Assembly (NCBI RefSeq): GCF_009708005.2
Contig: NZ_CP052757.1
Coordinates: 3,100,001 to 3,164,000, forward strand
DNA: 64,000 nt
Reading direction: 5' to 3'
DNA from: Cellulosimicrobium protaetiae
GTDB lineage: Bacteria; Actinomycetota; Actinomycetes; Actinomycetales; Cellulomonadaceae
The position numbers and the translations under genes are program-made. Shown piece by piece: positions 54,697-64,000 of the stretch (positions are counted from its first letter, which is position 1; each line of letters opens with the position of its first letter). The notes under the pieces were generated by a model. That model had not been told where the DNA came from. It searched no databases and saw nothing but the letters and a program-made list of their open reading frames with translations.

Positions 54697-55404
54697 GTGA
54701 CCGAGGACCAGGACCCCGCCGTCGACCCCGCGCACGACGGCACGCAGGACCACTACTTCACCGCGCGGCCGGCGTCCGCCGCGGAGCGCCGCACGATCTC
54801 CGTACGCCTCGCGGGCCGCGACGTCGAGGTGGAGGTCGCGTCCGGCGTCTTCTCCCCCGGGCGACTCGATCTCGGCACGCAGGTCCTGCTCCGCACGACC
54901 CCGCCGCTCGACGACGTCGTGGCGGCCCGGGCCGCCCGCGCGGACGACGAGCAGGACGGCACGGCGCACGTCCTCGACCTGGGCTGCGGCTGGGGACCCG
55001 TCGCGCTGACGATGGCGCTCGAGGCCCCGGACGTGACGGTGTGGGCGGTCGACGTCAACGAGCGCGCGCTCGACCTCGTGCGGCGCAACGCGGAGCGGAT
55101 CGGCCTGACGAACGTGCGCGCGGTCACCCCGGACGACGTGCCCGACGACGTCTCGTTCGCCGCGGTGTGGTCGAACCCGCCGATCCGCGTCGGCAAGGAC
55201 GTCCTGCACGCGATGCTGCTGTACTGGCTCCCGCGTCTCGCGCCGGGCGCGAGCGCGCACCTGGTCGTGCAGCGCAACCTCGGGTCTGACTCGCTCCAGC
55301 GCTGGCTCGCCGAGGCGCTGCAGCCGCTCCTACCGGGCGCGGTCGTCGAGCGCACCGCGAGCGCCAAGGGGTTCCGGGTGCTGGAGGTCGTGGCCCCGGG
55401 CTGA
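54697..55404 (+). CDS. Class I methyltransferase, RsmC/RlmG-like
   Basis: A 235-residue SAM-dependent methyltransferase. The SAM loop is LDLGCGWGPVALTMAL, followed by the acidic strand end AVDVNERAL. The catalytic NPPI motif lies in WSNPPIRVGKDVLH. NPPI marks N-methylation of a guanine or adenine base, and HYFTARPASA upstream matches the RsmC-type 16S rRNA guanine-N2 family. Target site inferred. The GTG start is uncertain; 54631 is the alternative. Confidence 0.82.
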   Translation: MTEDQDPAVDPAHDGTQDHYFTARPASAAERRTISVRLAGRDVEVEVASGVFSPGRLDLGTQVLLRTTPPLDDVVAARAARADDEQDGTAHVLDLGCGWGPVALTMALEAPDVTVWAVDVNERALDLVRRNAERIGLTNVRAVTPDDVPDDVSFAAVWSNPPIRVGKDVLHAMLLYWLPRLAPGASAHLVVQRNLGSDSLQRWLAEALQPLLPGAVVERTASAKGFRVLEVVAPG

Positions 55405-55407
55405 GCA

Positions 55408-55422
55408 GGTCGCGCCGCGACC
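55408..55422. terminator. Small hairpin between convergent RsmC-like and dapF genes
   Basis: GGTCGCG-C-CGCGACC, a 7-bp stem four bases after the methyltransferase stop. Weak as a terminator because the loop must open. Confidence 0.35.
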
Positions 55423-55461
55423 GGTCCGTCGGACCCGGGTGCGCGCGGCGCAAAGGGTACG

Positions 55462-56535
55462 TCAGACCGCGGTGCGCGCGGCGTCCGGCGACCCGGCGGG
55501 GACGTCGGCGTCCACCTCGCCGGCGCCCGCGTCGGTCTGCGGCACTCCTTCCGCCGGGTCCTCGACCGCCTCGGTCGACGCGTCGTCGGCCGCGTCCTCC
55601 CGCTCCTCGACGACGGGCGCGGGCAGGAACGACGCCAGGTCGACCTCGCCCGAGTACACGAGCTCGGCAGGCCCTGCGAGCTCGACACGATCCCCGTCGA
55701 GCGCCCGGACGCGCACGGTCCCGCCCGGGACGTCGACGAGCCACGTGTCCGGCGCGTCGGGCCCACCCCACACACGGACCGCGAGCGCCGCGGCGCACGC
55801 GCCCGTGCCGCACGACGGGGTCTCCCCGACCCCGCGCTCGTGCACGCGCATGCGGACGCGCCCGACGAGCGTGCCGTCGTCGGCCGTCGTCTCGCCCAGC
55901 GGCACCACGAGCTCGACGTTCGTCCCGTGCGGCGGTCGCGGCTCGACGACGGGCGCCTCGGACAGGTCGGCGCGCGCGAGCACGTCCTCGCGCGCGACGG
56001 CGAGCACCGTGTGCGGGTTGCCGAGGTCCACGCTCAGCGCCGGGCGCGGGACCTCCCAACCGCGCACGACGACGGTCGCGTCGTAGCCGTCGTGCAACGC
56101 GGGGCGGCCCCCGGGCAGGAACCAGCGGCCCATGTCGACCGCGAACCAGCCGTCGTCCTCCTTGCGCACGCGCTTGACGCCCGCGCGCGTCCCGACGGGG
56201 ACCTCGGTGCCGCCCGCGAAGCTCACGAGCCCGAGGCGCTCGGCGAACGCGGCGAAGACGCGGACGCCGTTGCCGCACATCTCGGCGACCGAGCCGTCGG
56301 CGTTGCGGTAGTCCATGAACCAGATCGCGTGCGGGTCCTCGGCGAGCACCTCGCGCGACTCGGGCACGAGCGCGGTCGGGACGAGCCGGATCACGCCGTC
56401 GCCACCGATGCCACCGCGGCGGTCGGCGAGCGCGCGCACGACCTCGGGCGTGAGGTCGAGCTCGCCCTTCGTGTCGGCGAGCAGCACGAAGTCGTTGCGG
56501 GTCCCGTGGCCCTTGGTGAAGCGGGTGCGCGTCAT
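55462..56535 (-). CDS. dapF: Diaminopimelate epimerase
   Basis: Interconverts LL- and meso-diaminopimelate in the lysine pathway by a two-cysteine mechanism. It has 357 residues. The catalytic cysteines are in MCGNGVRVF and SCGTGACAAAL, and GNPHTVL lies between. About 55 C-terminal residues form an acidic, Asp/Glu/Ala-rich tail not found in the core family (core about 280-300 residues). The ATG at 56535 overlaps the miaA stop (ATGA). The miaA-dapF pair is usual in actinobacteria. Confidence 0.96.
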   Translation of the reverse strand: MTRTRFTKGHGTRNDFVLLADTKGELDLTPEVVRALADRRGGIGGDGVIRLVPTALVPESREVLAEDPHAIWFMDYRNADGSVAEMCGNGVRVFAAFAERLGLVSFAGGTEVPVGTRAGVKRVRKEDDGWFAVDMGRWFLPGGRPALHDGYDATVVVRGWEVPRPALSVDLGNPHTVLAVAREDVLARADLSEAPVVEPRPPHGTNVELVVPLGETTADDGTLVGRVRMRVHERGVGETPSCGTGACAAALAVRVWGGPDAPDTWLVDVPGGTVRVRALDGDRVELAGPAELVYSGEVDLASFLPAPVVEEREDAADDASTEAVEDPAEGVPQTDAGAGEVDADVPAGSPDAARTAV

Positions 56536-57575
56536 GAGCCCAGACTACGGCGGACGGGGGCAGCGCTGTCCGCTTCGTCCGGCCCGGAGACCTCGCCCCG
56601 CGCGACGGCGTCCGCGCGCTCGTCGGCTCGGGCCACGAGCGCGAGCGCGTCCTCGACGCGCGTCGGGGACTGCGCGTCGAGCCAGTGGACGCGTGGGTCG
56701 CGGCCGAACCAGCCCATCTGCTTGCGGGCCAGGCGGCGCGTGTTCGCGGTGACGGCCTCACGCGCCGCGTCCTCGGTCGTCTCGCCGTGGAGCGCGGCGA
56801 GGACCTCGGCGTACCCGACGGCGCGGCGCGCCGTCCGGCCCATCCCCCGCGCCTCGACGCGGCGGACCTCGTCGACGAGCCCCTGCGCCCACATGCGCTC
56901 GACCCGTCCGGCGACGCGCGCGTCGAGGACGTCGCGGTCGCAGTCGAGGCCGACCTGGACGGTCGGGCGCACGTAGACCTGGCGCGGCAGGTTGGCCGTG
57001 AAGGGTTCCCCGGTGAGCTCCATGACCTCCAGGGCGCGGACGACGCGCCGCGTGTTGGCCGGGCCGATGCTCGCCGCGGCCGCCGGGTCGCGCCGCGCGA
57101 GCTCGTCGTGCAGGGCGCGCGTCCCCTCGGACTCGGCGCGCGCCTCGAGCGCCGCACGCACCTCGGGGTCGGTACCGGGGAACCGCATGTCGTCGAGGAG
57201 CGCGCGCACGTAGAGACCGGACCCGCCCACGACGACGGCGCGCGCCCCGCGGGCGGCGATCTCGTCGAGCACGCGCCGGGCCTCGGTCTGGTAGCGCGCG
57301 ACCGACGCGTCCTCGACGGGGTCGATGACGTCGAGGAGGTGGTGACGCACGCCGCGCCGTTCGTCGACCGCCACCTTGGCCGTCCCGACGTCCATGCCCC
57401 GGTAGAGCTGGTAGGCGTCGGCGTTGACGATCTCGGCGGGCGCGCCGGGGAGCGACAGCCGCTCCGCCAGGTCGAGGGCGAGGTCCGACTTGCCCGTGGC
57501 CGTCGGGCCCACGACGGCGACGACGACGCCGTGCCCTCCGGTCAGAGCGCCCGTCGGTCCGTGCTCGGTTTTCAC
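56532..57575 (-). CDS. miaA: tRNA dimethylallyltransferase
   Basis: Adds a dimethylallyl group to N6 of A37 in tRNAs reading codons that begin with U. It has 347 residues. The P-loop is VGPTATGKSDLAL. EIVNADAYQLYRGMDVGTAK, VGGSGLYVRALLDD and QMGWFGRDPRVHWLD are family signatures. The GTG at 57575 gives MKTEHGPTG and has TACCGT 7 bases before it; more upstream open sequence is not conserved. Confidence 0.95.
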   Translation of the reverse strand: MKTEHGPTGALTGGHGVVVAVVGPTATGKSDLALDLAERLSLPGAPAEIVNADAYQLYRGMDVGTAKVAVDERRGVRHHLLDVIDPVEDASVARYQTEARRVLDEIAARGARAVVVGGSGLYVRALLDDMRFPGTDPEVRAALEARAESEGTRALHDELARRDPAAAASIGPANTRRVVRALEVMELTGEPFTANLPRQVYVRPTVQVGLDCDRDVLDARVAGRVERMWAQGLVDEVRRVEARGMGRTARRAVGYAEVLAALHGETTEDAAREAVTANTRRLARKQMGWFGRDPRVHWLDAQSPTRVEDALALVARADERADAVARGEVSGPDEADSAAPVRRSLGS

Positions 57576-57582
57576 CCGCGCA

Positions 57583-57588
57583 ACGGTA
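57583..57588 (-). promoter_or_regulatory. -10 element of the miaA-dapF operon (leaderless type)
   Basis: TACCGT on the minus strand, then 7 bases, then the miaA GTG. Confidence 0.5.
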
Positions 57589-57742
57589 CCGCCCGGGGCT
57601 GCGGGGTCTGGGGTCGTGTGGGTGGGGATGCGTAGTGTGTCCGTGGACGGTCCCCCTCCTCGCGGGACCTCGTCCGACACCACGCGCCGCCCCCGCCTGT
57701 ACGGGGCGCGCACCGACACTCAGACGACAAGGACTCGAGCAC

Positions 57743-58249
57743 ATGGGTTTCTTCACCAAGCCGGACGACGCCCCGACGAGCCAGAACGCGCCCCTGACGC
57801 GCGAGCGGGTCGAGGCGTTCCTCAAGGCCCGCGACTGGCGGTACTTCGTCGACTCCGACGGGGACCTCGGCGGCAACTGGGACGGCAAGGTGTTCTTCTT
57901 CTTCCTCATGGGCGAGAAGCAGGAGATCCTGCAGGTCCGCGGCCGGTGGAACCGGACGCTGCCCGCCGCGGCCGAGGCACAGGTCGTGCTCGTCGCCAAC
58001 GAGTTCAACCGCGACAAGATCTGGCCGAAGGTCTACACGCGCGTCGAGGACGACCAGCTCGCGGTGTACACGGAGGTCGCCACGGACCTCGAGTTCGGCG
58101 TCGCGGACGACCAGCTCGGCCAGCTCGTCGAGTGCGGCCTGTTCACCGGCCTGCAGTTCTTCGACGCGCTCGACGAGCGCTTCCCCGACACCGCGGCGCA
58201 GTCCGCGGTCACCGACGGCGCCGACGGCATCGACGTCGACGCACGGTGA
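57743..58249 (+). CDS. YbjN-domain protein, paralogue 1
   Basis: A 168-residue soluble protein of the YbjN family (type III secretion chaperone-like fold, function unknown). Key segments: YFVDSDGDLGGNWDGKVFFF (residues 34-53), EILQVRGRWNRTLP, ANEFNRDKIWPKVYTRV, and VATDLEFGVADDQLGQLVECGL. The D-S-D-G-D cluster at 37-41 is shared by all three paralogues here and might bind a metal; that is inferred. The ATG at 57743 is preceded by AAGGAC. Its stop overlaps the HSP90-like start (GTGA). Confidence 0.85.
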   Translation: MGFFTKPDDAPTSQNAPLTRERVEAFLKARDWRYFVDSDGDLGGNWDGKVFFFFLMGEKQEILQVRGRWNRTLPAAAEAQVVLVANEFNRDKIWPKVYTRVEDDQLAVYTEVATDLEFGVADDQLGQLVECGLFTGLQFFDALDERFPDTAAQSAVTDGADGIDVDAR

Positions 58250-60216
58250 GCGCGGCGCACGAGCGCGCCGACGTCGAGCCCGGTCCGAGCGGCACCGGTA
58301 CGGGCGGGGAGGCGACCGCGGCGTTCCAGGTCGACCTGCGGGGGGTCGTGGACCTCCTCGCCCGGCACCTGTACTCGAGCCCGCGCGTGTACCTGCGCGA
58401 GCTCCTGCAGAACGGGGTCGACGCGATCACGGCGCGGGTCGCCGTGGAGGGCTCGGAAGCACCGAGCCGCATCCTGCTGCGGCCGCTCCCGGACGGCGGT
58501 CTCGAGGTGCACGACTCGGGCGTCGGCCTGACCCGCGACGAGGCGCAGGAGCTGCTCGCGACCATCGGGCGCAGCTCCAAGCGCGACGTCGAGCTGGGCT
58601 CGGGGCGTGAAGAGTTCCTGGGCCAGTTCGGCATCGGGCTGCTCTCGGCGTTCATGGTCGCCGACGAGATCGAGCTCGTCTCGCGCTCCGCCCGCCGCGC
58701 ACCCTCCGGCGCTCCGGCGGCGCCGGTCCGCTGGCGCGGGCGGGCGGACGGGCGGTACGAGCTCGTCGAGCTGGGCGCCGACGACCCGGCGGCGCCCGCG
58801 GAACCGGGGAGCGTCGTGCGGCTGCGGCCGCGCCGGGACACCGAACACTGGCTCGCCCCCGAGACGGTGGTCGCGCTCGCGCAGGACTTCGGGTCGCTCC
58901 TGCCGGTCGAGCTGCTCGTCGAGACCCGTCTCGACGACGCGGCCGCGACCGCGACGGACGTCGTGCGGCGCCGGCTGAGCGGCGACGAGCTGCCCTGGCA
59001 CGTCGCGCACCCGACGACCGCGGCGCGCGACGCCGCGCTGACCGGCTACGCCGAGCGGACGCTGGGCTTCGCTCCGCTCGCCCGCATCGACCTCGACCTG
59101 CCGCTCGCCGGGCTGTCCGGCGTCGCCTACGTCCTGCCGGCGGCGGTCGCACCGACCACCACCGCGCGGCACCGGGTCTACCTCAAGCGGATGCTCCTGG
59201 GTAGCGCCGTCGACGACCTGCTCCCCCCGTGGGCGTTCTTCGTGCGCTGCGTGCTCGACGCGTCGGTCCTGCGCCCGACCGCGTCGCGCGAGGGCCTCTA
59301 CGAGGACGAGGTCCTGCTCGCGACCCGCGGCGCGCTCGGCGCCCAGGTACGGCGCTGGCTCCTCGAGACGCTCGCCGCAGACACGGTGCTGGCGCGCCGC
59401 TTCCTCGAGACGCACCACCTCGCGGTCCGGGCGCTCGCCCTGACCGACGACGAGATGCTCGACGTCGCGGCGCGCGTGCTGCCCTTCGAGACGACCGCCG
59501 GAGCAGGCACCCTCGCCGACCTCGCGGAGGCCCACCCCGAGGGTCGTCTGCTCTACACGTCGAGCGTCGAGGAGTTCCGCCGCATCGCGCCCGTCGCGGC
59601 CGCCCAGGGTCTGGCCGTCGTCAACGGCGGGTACGTCTACGACGCGGACCTGCTCGAACGCGTCGCCGCGCGGTTCCCGCAGTGGCGGCTGTCGCCCGTG
59701 TCGGCCACGGACGTCGCGCACGTCCTGGCCGAGGTCGAGCCGCTGCGCGAGCTCGAGGTCGCGGACGCGCTCGCGTCCGTCGACGCCGCGCTCGCCGACC
59801 AGGACTGCGACGTCGTGCTGCGCCGGTACGAGCCGGACGCGCTGCCCGCGATGCTCCTGCACGACCGCGACGGCGACCACGCGCGCGAGGCGGCCCGCGT
59901 CGCCGGGACGGACGACCTGTGGGGCGAGATCCTCGCGGGGATCAGCGGCCCGGCCAGGCCGCGCCGGCTCGTGCTCAACGATGCCAACGACACGGTGCGC
60001 GACCTGCTCGCGAGCCCCGACGCGGAGGTGCGCGCCGCGGGCGCCCGGTCCCTGTACGTCACCGCGGTGCTCGCCTCGGGCAAGGCGCTGCAGCCCGTCG
60101 AGGCCGCGCTGATGAACGACTCGCTCTCGCTCCTGCTCGCCCGCGCGCTCGCGGCCCGCCCTGGCCGCGGCGCCCACCCCCACCCCGAACAGAACGCCGA
60201 CGAGGAGAACCGATGA
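58246..60216 (+). CDS. HSP90-family (HtpG-like) GHKL ATPase
   Basis: A 656-residue chaperone-like protein. In the N-terminal GHKL fold, YLRELLQNGVDAI holds catalytic E52 and the Mg-binding N56. DSGVGLTRDEA, IGRSSKRD and GQFGIGLLSAFMVADE form the nucleotide lid region. The middle domain has RVYLKRMLLGSAVDDLLPPWAFF and RPTASREGLYEDE. The charged linker and canonical HtpG C-terminus are not evident, so it is a divergent actinobacterial HSP90-like protein rather than HtpG itself. The GTG overlaps the YbjN stop and its own stop overlaps the TPR start (ATGA). Confidence 0.87.
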   Translation: MSAAHERADVEPGPSGTGTGGEATAAFQVDLRGVVDLLARHLYSSPRVYLRELLQNGVDAITARVAVEGSEAPSRILLRPLPDGGLEVHDSGVGLTRDEAQELLATIGRSSKRDVELGSGREEFLGQFGIGLLSAFMVADEIELVSRSARRAPSGAPAAPVRWRGRADGRYELVELGADDPAAPAEPGSVVRLRPRRDTEHWLAPETVVALAQDFGSLLPVELLVETRLDDAAATATDVVRRRLSGDELPWHVAHPTTAARDAALTGYAERTLGFAPLARIDLDLPLAGLSGVAYVLPAAVAPTTTARHRVYLKRMLLGSAVDDLLPPWAFFVRCVLDASVLRPTASREGLYEDEVLLATRGALGAQVRRWLLETLAADTVLARRFLETHHLAVRALALTDDEMLDVAARVLPFETTAGAGTLADLAEAHPEGRLLYTSSVEEFRRIAPVAAAQGLAVVNGGYVYDADLLERVAARFPQWRLSPVSATDVAHVLAEVEPLRELEVADALASVDAALADQDCDVVLRRYEPDALPAMLLHDRDGDHAREAARVAGTDDLWGEILAGISGPARPRRLVLNDANDTVRDLLASPDAEVRAAGARSLYVTAVLASGKALQPVEAALMNDSLSLLLARALAARPGRGAHPHPEQNADEENR

Positions 60217-62222
60217 CCCGGTCCGTGGACCAGGTGAACGCCGCGCTGTACGACGTCCGCCGCATGCCCTACGGCCTCGCCCGCTCCACCGCGGCCGCGG
60301 CCGAGGTCGAGCGCGTCGAGGCAGAGGGCCCGGACGGGGCACGGGCGTACGCGCTCTTCGTCCTCGTGGAGTCGTACGTCTGGGGCGGCGAGGTCACCAA
60401 GGCCTATCTGCCGTTCACCAAGATGCTGCGCTGGTGGGACGAGCACCCCGAGCACTTCGACGCCGAGGACGCCCACTCGCTCTTCTGGTCGTTCAAGTGG
60501 ATGGTCGGGCACCTCATGGAGTTCCCCACCGTCCCTGCCGCGCAGATCGAGCGCACGCTCGACGACATGGCCCGCCGGTACGCGCTCGCCGGCAACGGCA
60601 CGAACGCCGTCGCGCTCGAGCGTTTCGAGTGGGCCCGCGAGCGCGGGGGCCAGGACGTCGAGGACGCCTACCGCGCCTGGGTCGCGACCCCGCGCGACGA
60701 GTTCTCGCAGTGCGAGGCGTGCGAGCCCGGCGACCGCGCCGCGTACCTCTTCGAGGTGGGCCGGCACGACGAGGGGATCCGGCTGCTCGAGCAGGTGCTC
60801 CAGGGATCGCCGTCGTGCGCGACCGAGCCCGGGGACATGCTCTCCCACCTGCAGCTCGCCTACCTCGTGGTCGGCGACGCGGCGGCCGCGGCCCGCACGC
60901 ACCGCCGCGGGCTGCGCCACCTCGACACCGGCGTGGCGATGACGGGCCCGAAGGGCCGCCACGTCGAGTTCCTCGCGCGCACCGGCAACGCGTCGCGCGC
61001 ACTGCGCCTGCTCACCGAGCACCAGGCGTTCCTCACCGAGACGGACTCGCCCGGGGACCGCCTCGGCTTCCTCACGAGCGTGAGCGTCGCGACCGGCGCG
61101 CTCCGCGCCGAGCACGGGGACGCACCGCTCGCCCTGCGCGACGTACCCGCCGCCACCGTCGCCGAGCTCGACGACTGGGCACGCCGCGAGGCGAGCGAGC
61201 TCGCGCGCGCCTTCGACGCGCGCAACGGCACGCCCGCCGCGTCGGAGCGCCTGCGCTCCGCGTGGGCCGCCGGGACGCGCACGCTCCCGGTCGACCTCGC
61301 GGTGCTGACCTCCGCGGCCGCACCCGGGTCGAGCGTCGCGGCGGGCGCGGGAGGCAGCGACGGCACCACACCGTCCGCGCCCCCGGACGGCGTGATCGTG
61401 CCGGGCGCGGCGACCTCCGCGGGGGCACAAGGCGGTGGTCCTGCGACCGCGGGGGCAGAACCCTCCGACGCCGACGGGCTCCTGGCGCTCGCCGAGGGCG
61501 TCGCCGGCGAGGACCCGGTGCGCGCCGCGCAGCTCCTGCGGCGCGCGGCGGCTCTCCTCGAGTCCGCCGGCCACCTCGACCGCGCAGGCTTCACCCTCGC
61601 CGAGGCGGCTCGCCTCGCCGCGCTGGAGGGAGACGACGACGGGGCGGCCCCCGCGTTCGTGCACGCGCTCGCGCTCGTACGGGCCGGCGGCGTCGCACCC
61701 CGGTTCGTCGGGCCGGTCGTCCGCGCCTACGCGCGGCTGGAGGCCGGGCGCGGGGACGTGAGCGGGGCTCTGGCCCAGGTCGAGCGCACGCTCGACGACC
61801 TCGCCGCGACGACGGACCCGCTCGCCGCCGGGTCGGCGCCGCGGGCGGCCGAGCTCGTCGAGCGTGACGCCGCGGCCGACGACCGCGAGCGTCGTGACCT
61901 GCGGGACACGCAGGCCCGGCTCCTGGCCACCGCGGGCGACCTCGACGCGGCCGCGACGCTCGCCGAGGCCGTGGCCGAGGACTTCGCGCGCGCCGGGCAG
62001 GTCGGCGACGCTGCCCACGCGTTCTGGCTCGCGGGCCGCTCGCGGTGCGAGGCCGGTGCCGACGCGGAGGCGGTCGACCTCCTGGAGTCCGCGATGGCGG
62101 GATTCGCGATCGTCCACGACCGCGAGACCCGCACGGCGGTCGCGAACGAGCTGGTCGCCACGCTGCGCCGCCTCGGGCGCGAGCAGGACGCGGCGGCCGT
62201 CGGGGCTGCCCTCAGCGGCTGA
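60213..62222 (+). CDS. Tetratricopeptide-like repeat protein
   Basis: A 669-residue, largely helical cytoplasmic protein with two repeat arrays (about 1-370 and 425-669) joined by an Ala/Gly/Pro-rich linker (about 368-420). Repeat-like helices include YLFEVGRHDEGIRLLEQVLQG, LQLAYLVVGDAAAAARTHRRGL and RLLATAGDLDAAATLAEAVAEDFARAGQ. No catalytic motif is seen. Coupling to the HSP90-like gene (ATGA) suggests a co-chaperone or client adaptor, as TPR domains often bind HSP90; this is inference. Its end overlaps the convergent gene by 11 bases. Confidence 0.83.
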   Translation: MTRSVDQVNAALYDVRRMPYGLARSTAAAAEVERVEAEGPDGARAYALFVLVESYVWGGEVTKAYLPFTKMLRWWDEHPEHFDAEDAHSLFWSFKWMVGHLMEFPTVPAAQIERTLDDMARRYALAGNGTNAVALERFEWARERGGQDVEDAYRAWVATPRDEFSQCEACEPGDRAAYLFEVGRHDEGIRLLEQVLQGSPSCATEPGDMLSHLQLAYLVVGDAAAAARTHRRGLRHLDTGVAMTGPKGRHVEFLARTGNASRALRLLTEHQAFLTETDSPGDRLGFLTSVSVATGALRAEHGDAPLALRDVPAATVAELDDWARREASELARAFDARNGTPAASERLRSAWAAGTRTLPVDLAVLTSAAAPGSSVAAGAGGSDGTTPSAPPDGVIVPGAATSAGAQGGGPATAGAEPSDADGLLALAEGVAGEDPVRAAQLLRRAAALLESAGHLDRAGFTLAEAARLAALEGDDDGAAPAFVHALALVRAGGVAPRFVGPVVRAYARLEAGRGDVSGALAQVERTLDDLAATTDPLAAGSAPRAAELVERDAAADDRERRDLRDTQARLLATAGDLDAAATLAEAVAEDFARAGQVGDAAHAFWLAGRSRCEAGADAEAVDLLESAMAGFAIVHDRETRTAVANELVATLRRLGREQDAAAVGAALSG

Positions 62223-62838
62223 CGGATCCGCTGAGCGGTCCCGGGGAGCTCAGGGCGTGGTCGTCGTACCAGCGGACCTCGTAGCGGTGCTGCTCGTACT
62301 CCCCCGTCGCGACGTGGCGGCGCCCGCCGTCGGGCGCGGCGCCGAACCCGGTGAGCACCGCGTCCGGCGCCGCGCTCCGCGGGTCGCGCACGACGACGAT
62401 CCGCGTGCCCTGGCGCGCGAGGTCGGCCCCGAGCTCGCGCGCGGCGGACAGGTCGGCGTCGTCCAGCTCGACGACGTCGACGTCCCCTTCCCAGCCGGCG
62501 CCCGCGAGGGCGAGGAGCCCGATCGACGCGGCGGTCCCGGCCACCGGTGCCTCGGCGGTGGCGGCCCGGGCCGTGGCAGCCCACCCGGCGTCGAGCCACG
62601 CGTCGGCGACGCCCACGGCCGCGAGCGACGCGCGCGCCGGCCCCCGTCGCGAGGACGCGCCGGGCGCCACGACGGCCACGGTCGTGGCGCTGCTCGCCCG
62701 CTGGGACACCAGGCCGTCCACGAGGCGACGCAGCGCGGTGAGCGCAGCCTCGCGCGAGCCGACGAGGACCTGTGCGTTCCCCGCGGCGCCGGGGACGAGG
62801 AGCGGGGTACCGGGCAGGACGACGGCGCGGACGGTCAC
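62212..62838 (-). CDS. Extradiol dioxygenase (class III subunit B)-like protein
   Basis: A 208-residue protein resembling actinobacterial proteins annotated as class III extradiol dioxygenase subunit B-like (TVRAVVLPGTPLLVPGAAG, then AAVGVADAWLDAGW, ASIGLLALAGAGWEGDVDVVELDD). The catalytic histidine pairs of true dioxygenases are not visible, so it is probably not an active dioxygenase; function unknown. The family is often near miaA/dapF. The GTG at 62838 has TACGGT 6 bases upstream and also GGTGGAG. It lies inside the YbjN/HSP90 cluster on the opposite strand. Confidence 0.72.
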   Translation of the reverse strand: MTVRAVVLPGTPLLVPGAAGNAQVLVGSREAALTALRRLVDGLVSQRASSATTVAVVAPGASSRRGPARASLAAVGVADAWLDAGWAATARAATAEAPVAGTAASIGLLALAGAGWEGDVDVVELDDADLSAARELGADLARQGTRIVVVRDPRSAAPDAVLTGFGAAPDGGRRHVATGEYEQHRYEVRWYDDHALSSPGPLSGSVSR

Positions 62839-62844
62839 CGCTCC

Positions 62845-62850
62845 ACCGTA
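62845..62850 (-). promoter_or_regulatory. -10 element of the extradiol dioxygenase-like gene
   Basis: TACGGT on the minus strand, then 6 bases, then GTG. Confidence 0.45.
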
Positions 62851-62981
62851 GCCGTCGTCGTCGCGTCGTCCCGGCACCCTGTCGCTCCGACGTCGTCAGC
62901 CGCGCGGCCGCCGTCCCGGCTCAGCCCGTCGAGCCGGGACGTATGACGACGCGCGATGCGACGACCGGGCCCGGGCGCGAG

Positions 62982-62987
62982 TACGGT
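62982..62987 (+). promoter_or_regulatory. -10 element of the second YbjN gene pair (leaderless type)
   Basis: TACGGT, then 6 bases, then GTG at 62994. It separates this YbjN pair from the HSP90-TPR operon. Confidence 0.5.
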
Positions 62988-62993
62988 GGGCGG

Positions 62994-63593
62994 GTGAGGT
63001 TCTTCGGGGCGCAGGACGACGACGACCGGCGGGACGGTGATCCCGACGGAGCTCCAGGCGGTGGCGGGGCCGGGTCCCGCCGTCCGGGTGACGAGCTCCA
63101 GTCCCAGGTCGAGGACCTCCTGGCGCGAGAGCTGGGGCAGGTCGCGACCGACGTCCTGCGGCCACCGACGCCGCTGACGCTCTCCCGGGTCGTCGAGTGG
63201 ATCACCGACAGCGGGTACAGCTATTTCGTCGACTCCGACGGCGACGTCGGCGGCCTGTGGCACGGCCGGCTCTTCTACTTCCTGCTGTTCGGCAACGGCG
63301 ACGAGATCCTGCAGGTCCGGGGGCAGTGGAACCGCGACCTGGCGCTCGAACGGCTCGAGGAGATCCTCGAGTTCTGCAACGAGTGGAACGCCGACCGGAT
63401 CTGGCCCAAGACCTACACGCGGGTGCGCGACAACGGGATGATCCAGGTCTTCACCGAGGTGACCGTTGACCTGGAGCACGGCGCGACCGACGACCAGCTC
63501 GACCAGCTCCTCCAGTGCGGCCTGAGCACCGGGTCGATGTTCTTCGACGCGCTCGACGAGTTCTACCCCGACCCGGCGAGGCAGGCGCCATGA
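62994..63593 (+). CDS. YbjN-domain protein, paralogue 2
   Basis: A 199-residue protein with a disordered acidic N-terminus (about 1-45, Asp/Gly/Arg-rich) and a YbjN domain: YFVDSDGDVGGLWHGRLFYF (77-96), EILQVRGQWNRDL, CNEWNADRIWPKTYTRV, and VTVDLEHGATDDQLDQLLQCGL. Similar along its whole domain to paralogues 1 and 3. The GTG at 62994 is preferred because of the -10 before it; an ATG at 62943 in frame is the alternative. Its stop overlaps the next start (ATGA). Confidence 0.82.
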   Translation: MRFFGAQDDDDRRDGDPDGAPGGGGAGSRRPGDELQSQVEDLLARELGQVATDVLRPPTPLTLSRVVEWITDSGYSYFVDSDGDVGGLWHGRLFYFLLFGNGDEILQVRGQWNRDLALERLEEILEFCNEWNADRIWPKTYTRVRDNGMIQVFTEVTVDLEHGATDDQLDQLLQCGLSTGSMFFDALDEFYPDPARQAP

Positions 63594-64000
63594 CGCAGGC
63601 CCGCACCAACTGGTTCACGCGCCTGTTCGGCAACCGCCGGCCGAAGGCGCCCGACTCCCTCCCCCGGGAGGAGGAGCTGCCGCGCGCCCTGTCCATGGCG
63701 CGGGTCGGCGACCACCTCACGCGGCGCGGGTACCACTTCCGCGTGGACGACGACGGGGACATCACGGGCACGTGGGACGGGCACCGCTTCTGGTTCCTGC
63801 TGCTCGGCGACCGGTCCGAGATCCTGCAGGTCCGCGGGCGCTGGTCGACGACGCTCCCCCTCGACTCGCGGCTCGTCACCCTGCAGGCCGTGAACGACTG
63901 GAACCGCGAACGCATCTGGCCCAAGGTCTACGTGCGGGAGGAGGCAGGACGTCTCGCGCTCTACGCCGAGGTGTCCGTCGACCTCGAGCACGGCGCGACC
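63590..64000 (+). CDS. YbjN-domain protein, paralogue 3, cut by the window edge
   Basis: The first 137 residues are visible. The N-terminus MTQARTNWFTRLFGNRRPKA is basic and amphipathic. The YbjN domain follows: FRVDDDGDITGTWDGHRFWF (50-69), EILQVRGRWSTTLP, VNDWNRERIWPKVYVRE and VSVDLEHGAT at the edge. The gene is coupled to paralogue 2 by ATGA overlap. About 25-35 residues are probably missing. Confidence 0.85.
   Translation, partial: MTQARTNWFTRLFGNRRPKAPDSLPREEELPRALSMARVGDHLTRRGYHFRVDDDGDITGTWDGHRFWFLLLGDRSEILQVRGRWSTTLPLDSRLVTLQAVNDWNRERIWPKVYVREEAGRLALYAEVSVDLEHGAT

Follow-up and report, generated by a model that had tools for sequence, protein, structure and literature searches.

A conserved genetic pairing of a bacterial Hsp90 with a predicted tetratricopeptide-repeat-type solenoid protein, with YbjN genes as accessories

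Which genes belong together when a gene for a bacterial Hsp90 stands, with overlapping reading frames, between a gene of the YbjN family and one for a helical-repeat protein? The question arises from a stretch of 64,000 nucleotides of Cellulosimicrobium protaetiae (hereafter the window), at the end of which a YbjN-domain gene (Y1), an HSP90 family gene (H) and a gene for a tetratricopeptide repeat (TPR)-type protein (T) run in the same direction, with two further YbjN genes (Y2 and Y3) downstream. The frames of Y1 and H overlap by GTGA and those of H and T by ATGA; Y2 starts 771 bases past the stop of T, and Y2 and Y3 again overlap by ATGA. A sequence-only reading of this DNA had described the overlaps and the gap accurately, and had proposed one dedicated chaperone module of five genes, in which the YbjN proteins are clients, adaptors or metal-sensing cofactors of a non-canonical HSP90. 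We found that H and T form a near-constant pair, that YbjN is accessory to this pair, and that Y2 and Y3 belong to the surrounding block of genes.

The features of H are those predicted for an ATP-driven Hsp90 of the PRK14083 subfamily. Over its whole length (residues 24–638), H matched the curated profile of this subfamily, NF010683 ('HSP90 family protein'), with 721 bits against a cut-off of 455. The profile for canonical HtpG, NF003555, gave 127 bits, below its cut-off of 371, with homology that was nearly full-length. The predicted fold is that of a full-length Hsp90 with N-terminal, middle and C-terminal domains. All ATPase features tested were intact, namely the Glu, the Asn, DxGxG, GxFGxG and the middle-domain Arg, and residues E52, N56, D90, G92, G94, G126–G131 and R348 were invariant in 23 of 23 aligned proteins. 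We take E52 and N56 to correspond to yeast E33 and N37, and R348 to occupy the position of the catalytic Arg of the Hsp90 middle domain. A divergent or dead Hsp90 was rejected on the invariance of these residues, and the earlier label 'non-canonical' fits neither them nor the predicted fold. H is the sole Hsp90 match in its genome.

T is predicted to be a helix-turn-helix solenoid of two domains (predicted local distance difference test, 88.9; predicted template modelling score, 0.85). Pfam gave no match for the window's T alone at an E value of 0.01; PF13424 matched 9 of the 34 members of an alignment of T relatives (alignment A1), and the T profile shows TPR chains at positions about 390–660, so that TPR is seen in the predicted fold and among relatives of T. 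MalT domain III and the LGN/Pins TPR domains were among the top-scoring solved folds for the N- and C-terminal domains of T, a resemblance at the level of helical-repeat folds only, and helical repeats readily yield high Z in structure comparison. With the whole T model, Foldseek gave general repeat-protein matches at template modelling scores of 0.5 or less, and other folds may lie outside the matches listed.

Adjacency of H and T was nearly constant across three samples of H loci, comprising close loci (the window and 45 named loci), a class sample of 296 genomes and an order sample of 248 genomes; five order genomes (L123–L127) are also counted among the class loci. The named loci nearest to the window are from Cellulosimicrobium, with H identity of up to 92%. 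T followed H in 45 of 46 close loci; in the last one, the contig breaks off within H. The 45 include L046, whose T was found with the first T profile and is missing from a stricter count (44 of 46). H exceeded its cut-off in 36 of the 296 class genomes, and T stood beside it in 39 of 40 loci from 35 genomes other than the window's. Among order genomes, 42 of 248 had H, with T beside it in 35 of 37 new loci; the distance was no more than 2 kb in each of these 35 and no more than 300 bases in 26. A phylum-wide sample had H in 7 of 198 genomes, all of them class genomes already sampled. As a control, seven of seven distant Hsp90/HtpG loci (L052–L058; 22%–28% identical to H) were without T in the stretch examined. 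A fusion of H with T was also considered and was not seen in the loci scanned.

The presence and absence of the two genes agreed closely in the order sample. A T search of its 248 genomes at an E value of 1e-10 gave 50 genomes with any match, 44 of which were strong (best match at least 146 bits); the six with only weak matches, to the general TPR part or a fragment, (G158, G309, G350, G423, G502 and G509) were dropped from the T count. Forty genomes had both H and T, always within 2 kb of each other, two had H only, four T only and 202 neither (Fisher P = 4e-39, phylogeny ignored). Both 'H only' genomes carry a divergent H with a divergent T-like protein at its side; in G419 this protein lies downstream of H (hhalign 95.6%, 305 columns), in G420 upstream of it (91.1%, 151 columns). 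Among the 'T only' genomes, G437 has a divergent H over the cut-off beside T, and G480 has an H fragment beside T. The window's own family includes eight genomes with both genes and 11 with neither. In the order sample a T-like neighbour was thus seen beside every H, but an H was not seen for every T; any dependence seems to be stronger on the side of H.

H and T have also been duplicated together. Five class genomes contain two H-T copies, and in four of four two-copy genomes tested each H and its own T clustered with the same copy type in other genomes; the test left out G018, in which one T copy (L100) is split, and G358, an order genome with two H loci. Distances in the H tree and the T tree were correlated (r 0.91 over 112 loci), a value that includes shared species history.

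The pairing extends to a second phylum. A plasmid collection contained six records with H at an E value of 1e-20, from Streptomyces (three), Listeria (two) and Paenibacillus (one), and T adjoined H on the same strand in all six; some of these records are 2.7–2.9 Mb long and may be chromosomes, and the Bacilli sample amounts to three records. The gene order in L. monocytogenes is fri (on the opposite strand), H, T, a second T and a gene for an SMI1/KNR4 protein, and H and T have abutting frames in Paenibacillus cellulosilyticus. Listeria T matched the actinobacterial T profile (99.7%, E 5.5e-27), and Paenibacillus T is 26% identical to the window's T (E 2e-23). Both have the N-domain only (320–353 amino acids), without the C-terminal TPR domain seen in actinobacteria, and both have the same cysteines as the actinobacterial T; the N-domain is therefore the constant part of T. 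From gene order, the Listeria T gene should be lmo0941, whose product is described in the available text of PMC6901971 as hypothetical, of unknown function and showing signals of selection. H was also over its cut-off in two control genomes, Corynebacterium glutamicum and Deinobacterium chartae.

Taken together, the near-constant adjacency of H and T, their joint duplication and their shared absence argue for a partnership. With moderate confidence, we favour the reading that they make up one chaperone machine in which T is a partner dedicated to H, its most likely role being that of a co-chaperone or client adaptor. The rigid N-terminal helical solenoid of T, with its cysteine cluster, would contact H, and the flexibly linked C-terminal TPR domain would present clients or further adaptors. 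In this role T would resemble the TPR co-chaperones of eukaryotes, except that it would bind H through another surface. Eukaryotic TPR docking uses the C-terminal MEEVD tail of Hsp90, according to the available parts of PMC11687934 and PMC4428384. Unlike eukaryotic Hsp90, the H proteins whose tails we inspected have variable C-termini without any MEEVD-like motif, and docking must therefore differ from the eukaryotic mode.

Several observations weigh against such a machine. T occurs without H in G450 and G307 (no H at an E value of 1e-3) and, within the record examined, in Actinomyces oris, and one family has an unlinked second T paralogue, so T is not always an Hsp90 helper. At the exception in the class sample (L128), the neighbour is no more than generically TPR-like (hhalign 5%). 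A few copies are interrupted: the matching region contains stops in the H gene of G213 and in the T genes of G336 and G445. The T-like proteins that diverge most (G419 and G420) are without the cysteines, and T copies lie 1.1–1.4 kb from H in one family. H is found in the minority of class and order genomes counted above, so the H-T pair is dispensable. Additionally, the sampled genomes are related and the counts are therefore not independent events, and linkage of the two genes can reflect co-regulation only.

That H is never without T fits T as the sole client of H as well as T as a helper that H needs. Two features lead us to infer the helper role: no other Hsp90 is present here, and T combines a solenoid with a TPR arm that is separable. 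If T were a dedicated client, H would fold T or keep it regulated, and the working protein would be T itself, whose MalT-like solenoid bears a cysteine cluster in addition to TPR; YbjN would be the second partner of T. Hsp90 proteins usually serve many clients, however, and this explanation would leave the only Hsp90 match in the genome with a single one; moreover, the high Z behind the likeness to MalT comes easily to helical repeats. We therefore regard it as unlikely.

The cysteines of T raise a further alternative, in which CxxC...C would let T detect a metal, a ligand or the redox state and so switch the ATPase; H-T would then not be a general chaperone, and YbjN would relay the output. 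The motif C167xxC170...C202 is invariant in 34 of 34 T proteins of alignment A1, down to 26% identity to the window's T, and the same cysteines are present in the T of Listeria and Paenibacillus; together with the MalT-like fold, this pattern would suit a sensor. However, the cysteines are not universal in a second alignment (A2), in which at least 90% of the 29 proteins keep them, and they are missing from the two most divergent T-like proteins. When the likely open reading frames of 84 loci were clustered, no third gene was conserved beside H-T across lineages, which leaves this sensor-regulator without a neighbour common to different lineages, and we consider it improbable. Least probable of all is that H and T are merely co-inherited in a stress operon with products that do not interact, for although the evidence for the pair is genetic only and its linkage to YbjN is patchy, with Y1-type copies persisting where H-T is absent, the pairing survives changed gene context, duplication and a phylum boundary.

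The H-T machine that we favour has counterparts and contrasts among known Hsp90 systems. Eukaryotic Sti1/Hop and Cpr6 likewise represent an Hsp90 paired with a TPR protein. As far as the available texts go, the Hsp90 for which TPR co-chaperones are described is the cytosolic one of eukaryotes (PMC11687934), and E. coli HtpG was, in 2014, still without any identified co-chaperone (PMC4428384). In the available part of PMC1525184, the two HTPG copies of Streptomyces coelicolor belong to different groups, and Firmicutes and Actinobacteria fall in Groups A and C. PRK14083 is probably the Group C HtpG of this study (Chen et al. 2006), whose account, in the same part, mentions no partner gene. In the available texts of the open-licence literature, a search with limited terms found no description of a bacterial HtpG/HSP90–TPR gene pair. 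It is possible, and we suggest it only tentatively, that the whole Hsp90 subfamily, found here in both Actinomycetota and Bacilli, works as an obligate machine of two components, the second being a TPR-solenoid co-chaperone dedicated to it, independent of MEEVD, maybe gated by cysteines (through metal or redox), and with YbjN as a client adaptor in some actinobacteria. An obligate TPR partner for a bacterial Hsp90 would suggest that Hsp90–TPR teamwork has more than one origin and more than one way of docking, and the system would be both small and tractable. It would also provide a concrete partner for the YbjN family, which has no settled function.

YbjN itself is accessory to H-T, and Y1 probably joined the pair later in some lineages. 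Of 46 close loci, 37 had a YbjN gene no more than 1 kb from H or T. The same was seen in 14 of 42 order genomes (made up of the window and 13 of the 37 new loci, with none in L123–L127) and in none of 40 class loci. The proposal that YbjN is a required client or cofactor of the Hsp90 is thus not supported: 28 of 42 order genomes and all 40 class loci have no YbjN at this distance, and in five of the order genomes that carry H-T there was no YbjN match anywhere. YbjN is present in 267 of 296 class genomes, and therefore mostly serves elsewhere. What does stand is a link in part of the actinobacteria, including loci at which Y1-H-T lies away from miaA/miaB in the stretch examined (L022–L026, L030, L040 and L049) and two in which YbjN is placed after T (L032 and L035). 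A single open frame covers both T and YbjN in L033, although this fusion is not certain because the locus is from a metagenome assembly and has an internal ATG at the usual YbjN start. Evidence against a tight bond includes the Y1-type copies that persist without H-T (L167–L169; G341, G404 and G430) and the absence of a nearby YbjN from two of the eight H-T genomes of the window's family. In a tree of YbjN proteins, Y1 grouped with most other H-T-adjacent YbjNs, with weak support (0.53–0.90), and divergent linked YbjN pairs (L157, L159, L161, L194 and L195) were placed outside the linked group.

Added to the machine in one part of the actinobacteria, Y1 would probably be a client-binding adaptor that works with T, and it may feed clients to T or to H. 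YbjN family members (AmyR, DR1245 and E. coli YbjN) have a fold like that of class I type III secretion chaperones and are thought to act through protein contacts, in the available parts of PMC5398634 and PMC3575483. Y1, Y2 and Y3 are clear members of the family by profile, with the likeness in fold taken from its description only, and no convincing solved relative of Y1 was found by sequence. A Streptomyces cluster with YbjN, DnaJ and ClpB genes offers a loose parallel (PMC10060970, available part), and our search of the available literature found no report linking YbjN to Hsp90. All three proteins matched PF10722 far over its cut-off of 22, and the four shared motifs pointed out earlier are indeed present in each. 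Among 143 collected YbjN domains, mostly from relatives of this block, D-x-D-G-D occurred in 107, W-x-G in 100, IWPK in 82 and EILQVRG in 59; in the 21 from other places the motifs were weaker (29% for the third D of D-x-D-G-D and 38% for the W of IWPK). Motifs so frequent across the collected domains are therefore no mark of a special YbjN group. Apart from the wide occurrence of D-x-D-G-D, the analysis gave no sign for or against metal sensing by this motif.

We note two arrangements that involve accessory genes. Two YbjN-like genes stand directly before T with no H between them in L195:4850-9578 (G450) and in L205:3172-7922 (the A. oris record, where the second is weak and unnamed), possibly a YbjN–T system without Hsp90. 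At one L. monocytogenes locus (L203:6797-9607), an SMI1/KNR4 (SUKH) gene is the accessory where some actinobacteria have YbjN.

Y2 and Y3 are genes of the miaA–miaB block and not of the H-T module. The whole block is flanked by miaA/dapF/hflX and miaB/gluA/recA, and YbjN pairs at the place of Y2 and Y3 remain in it without H-T in L166, L170 and L171. We therefore rejected a module of all five genes; the part of that proposal that holds is a dedicated H-T pair, which is kept far beyond the related genera. The gene on the opposite strand between T and Y2, which overlaps the end of T by 11 bases, is also part of the block, as resembling frames occur within it in L166, L167 and L171, all without H-T. 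Y3 continues beyond the window; its frame, of 170 amino acids in L004, ends at L004:9103.

Table 1. Features of the locus, in positions of the window
Feature	Position	Strand	Description
Y1	57743..58249	+	YbjN-domain protein, 168 amino acids; PF10722, 93.8 bits
H	58246..60216	+	HSP90 family protein, PRK14083 subfamily, 656 amino acids; GTG start within the Y1 stop
H residues E52..N56 (ATPase Glu and Asn)	58399..58413	+	Invariant in 23/23 aligned
H residue R348 in 'TASRE' (middle-domain Arg position)	59287..59289	+	Invariant in 23/23; aligns with SRE of TRAP1
T	60213..62222	+	Two-domain TPR-type solenoid protein (predicted), 669 amino acids; constant partner of H
T cysteine cluster C167xxC170...C202	60711..60818	+	Invariant in 34/34 of alignment A1
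Gene between T and Y2	62212..62877	-	Uncharacterised product; no Pfam match at E 0.1
Y2	62994..63593	+	YbjN-domain protein, GTG start; PF10722, 106.3 bits; neighbour, outside the H-T module
Y3	63590..64000	+	YbjN-domain protein, ATG start; PF10722, 95.6 bits; neighbour, outside the H-T module

Other elements were sought around these genes. Rfam gave no RNA-family match at 55000–64000, the window contained no tRNA, and a HAIR-type inverted repeat, sought as a heat-shock operator, had no match in the window at up to three mismatches. An anti-phage defence system was considered and rejected; PADLOC gave weak ATPase-domain matches for H (best 19.5 bits, 6e-5), one weak match for T (E 0.08) and none for the YbjN proteins.

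Variation around H and T included additional T copies and lineage-specific neighbours. Six loci from one order family (L135, L136, L139, L141, L143 and L144) had two T copies at least 1.1 kb downstream of H; the gap between H and T in L135 holds a further TPR protein (PF13424 over the cut-off), with a similar frame in L136 and L141. The same family has a second T paralogue in frames of about 1250–1380 amino acids (L198:8314-12057, L199:6777-10925 and L202:5874-9632), with no H in the stretch examined and with the cysteine motif visible in L198 and L199. In one class of H-T loci a divergent gene (L095:8912-11212), which resembles the RecG helicase by eye only, lies beside the pair and is a neighbour common to 11 loci. 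The second H-T copy type has a conserved upstream gene in eight loci (L113:8917-10125) that matched nothing in Pfam; its likely start reads MFGKLFG, and a similar WFTRLFG lies near the start of Y3.

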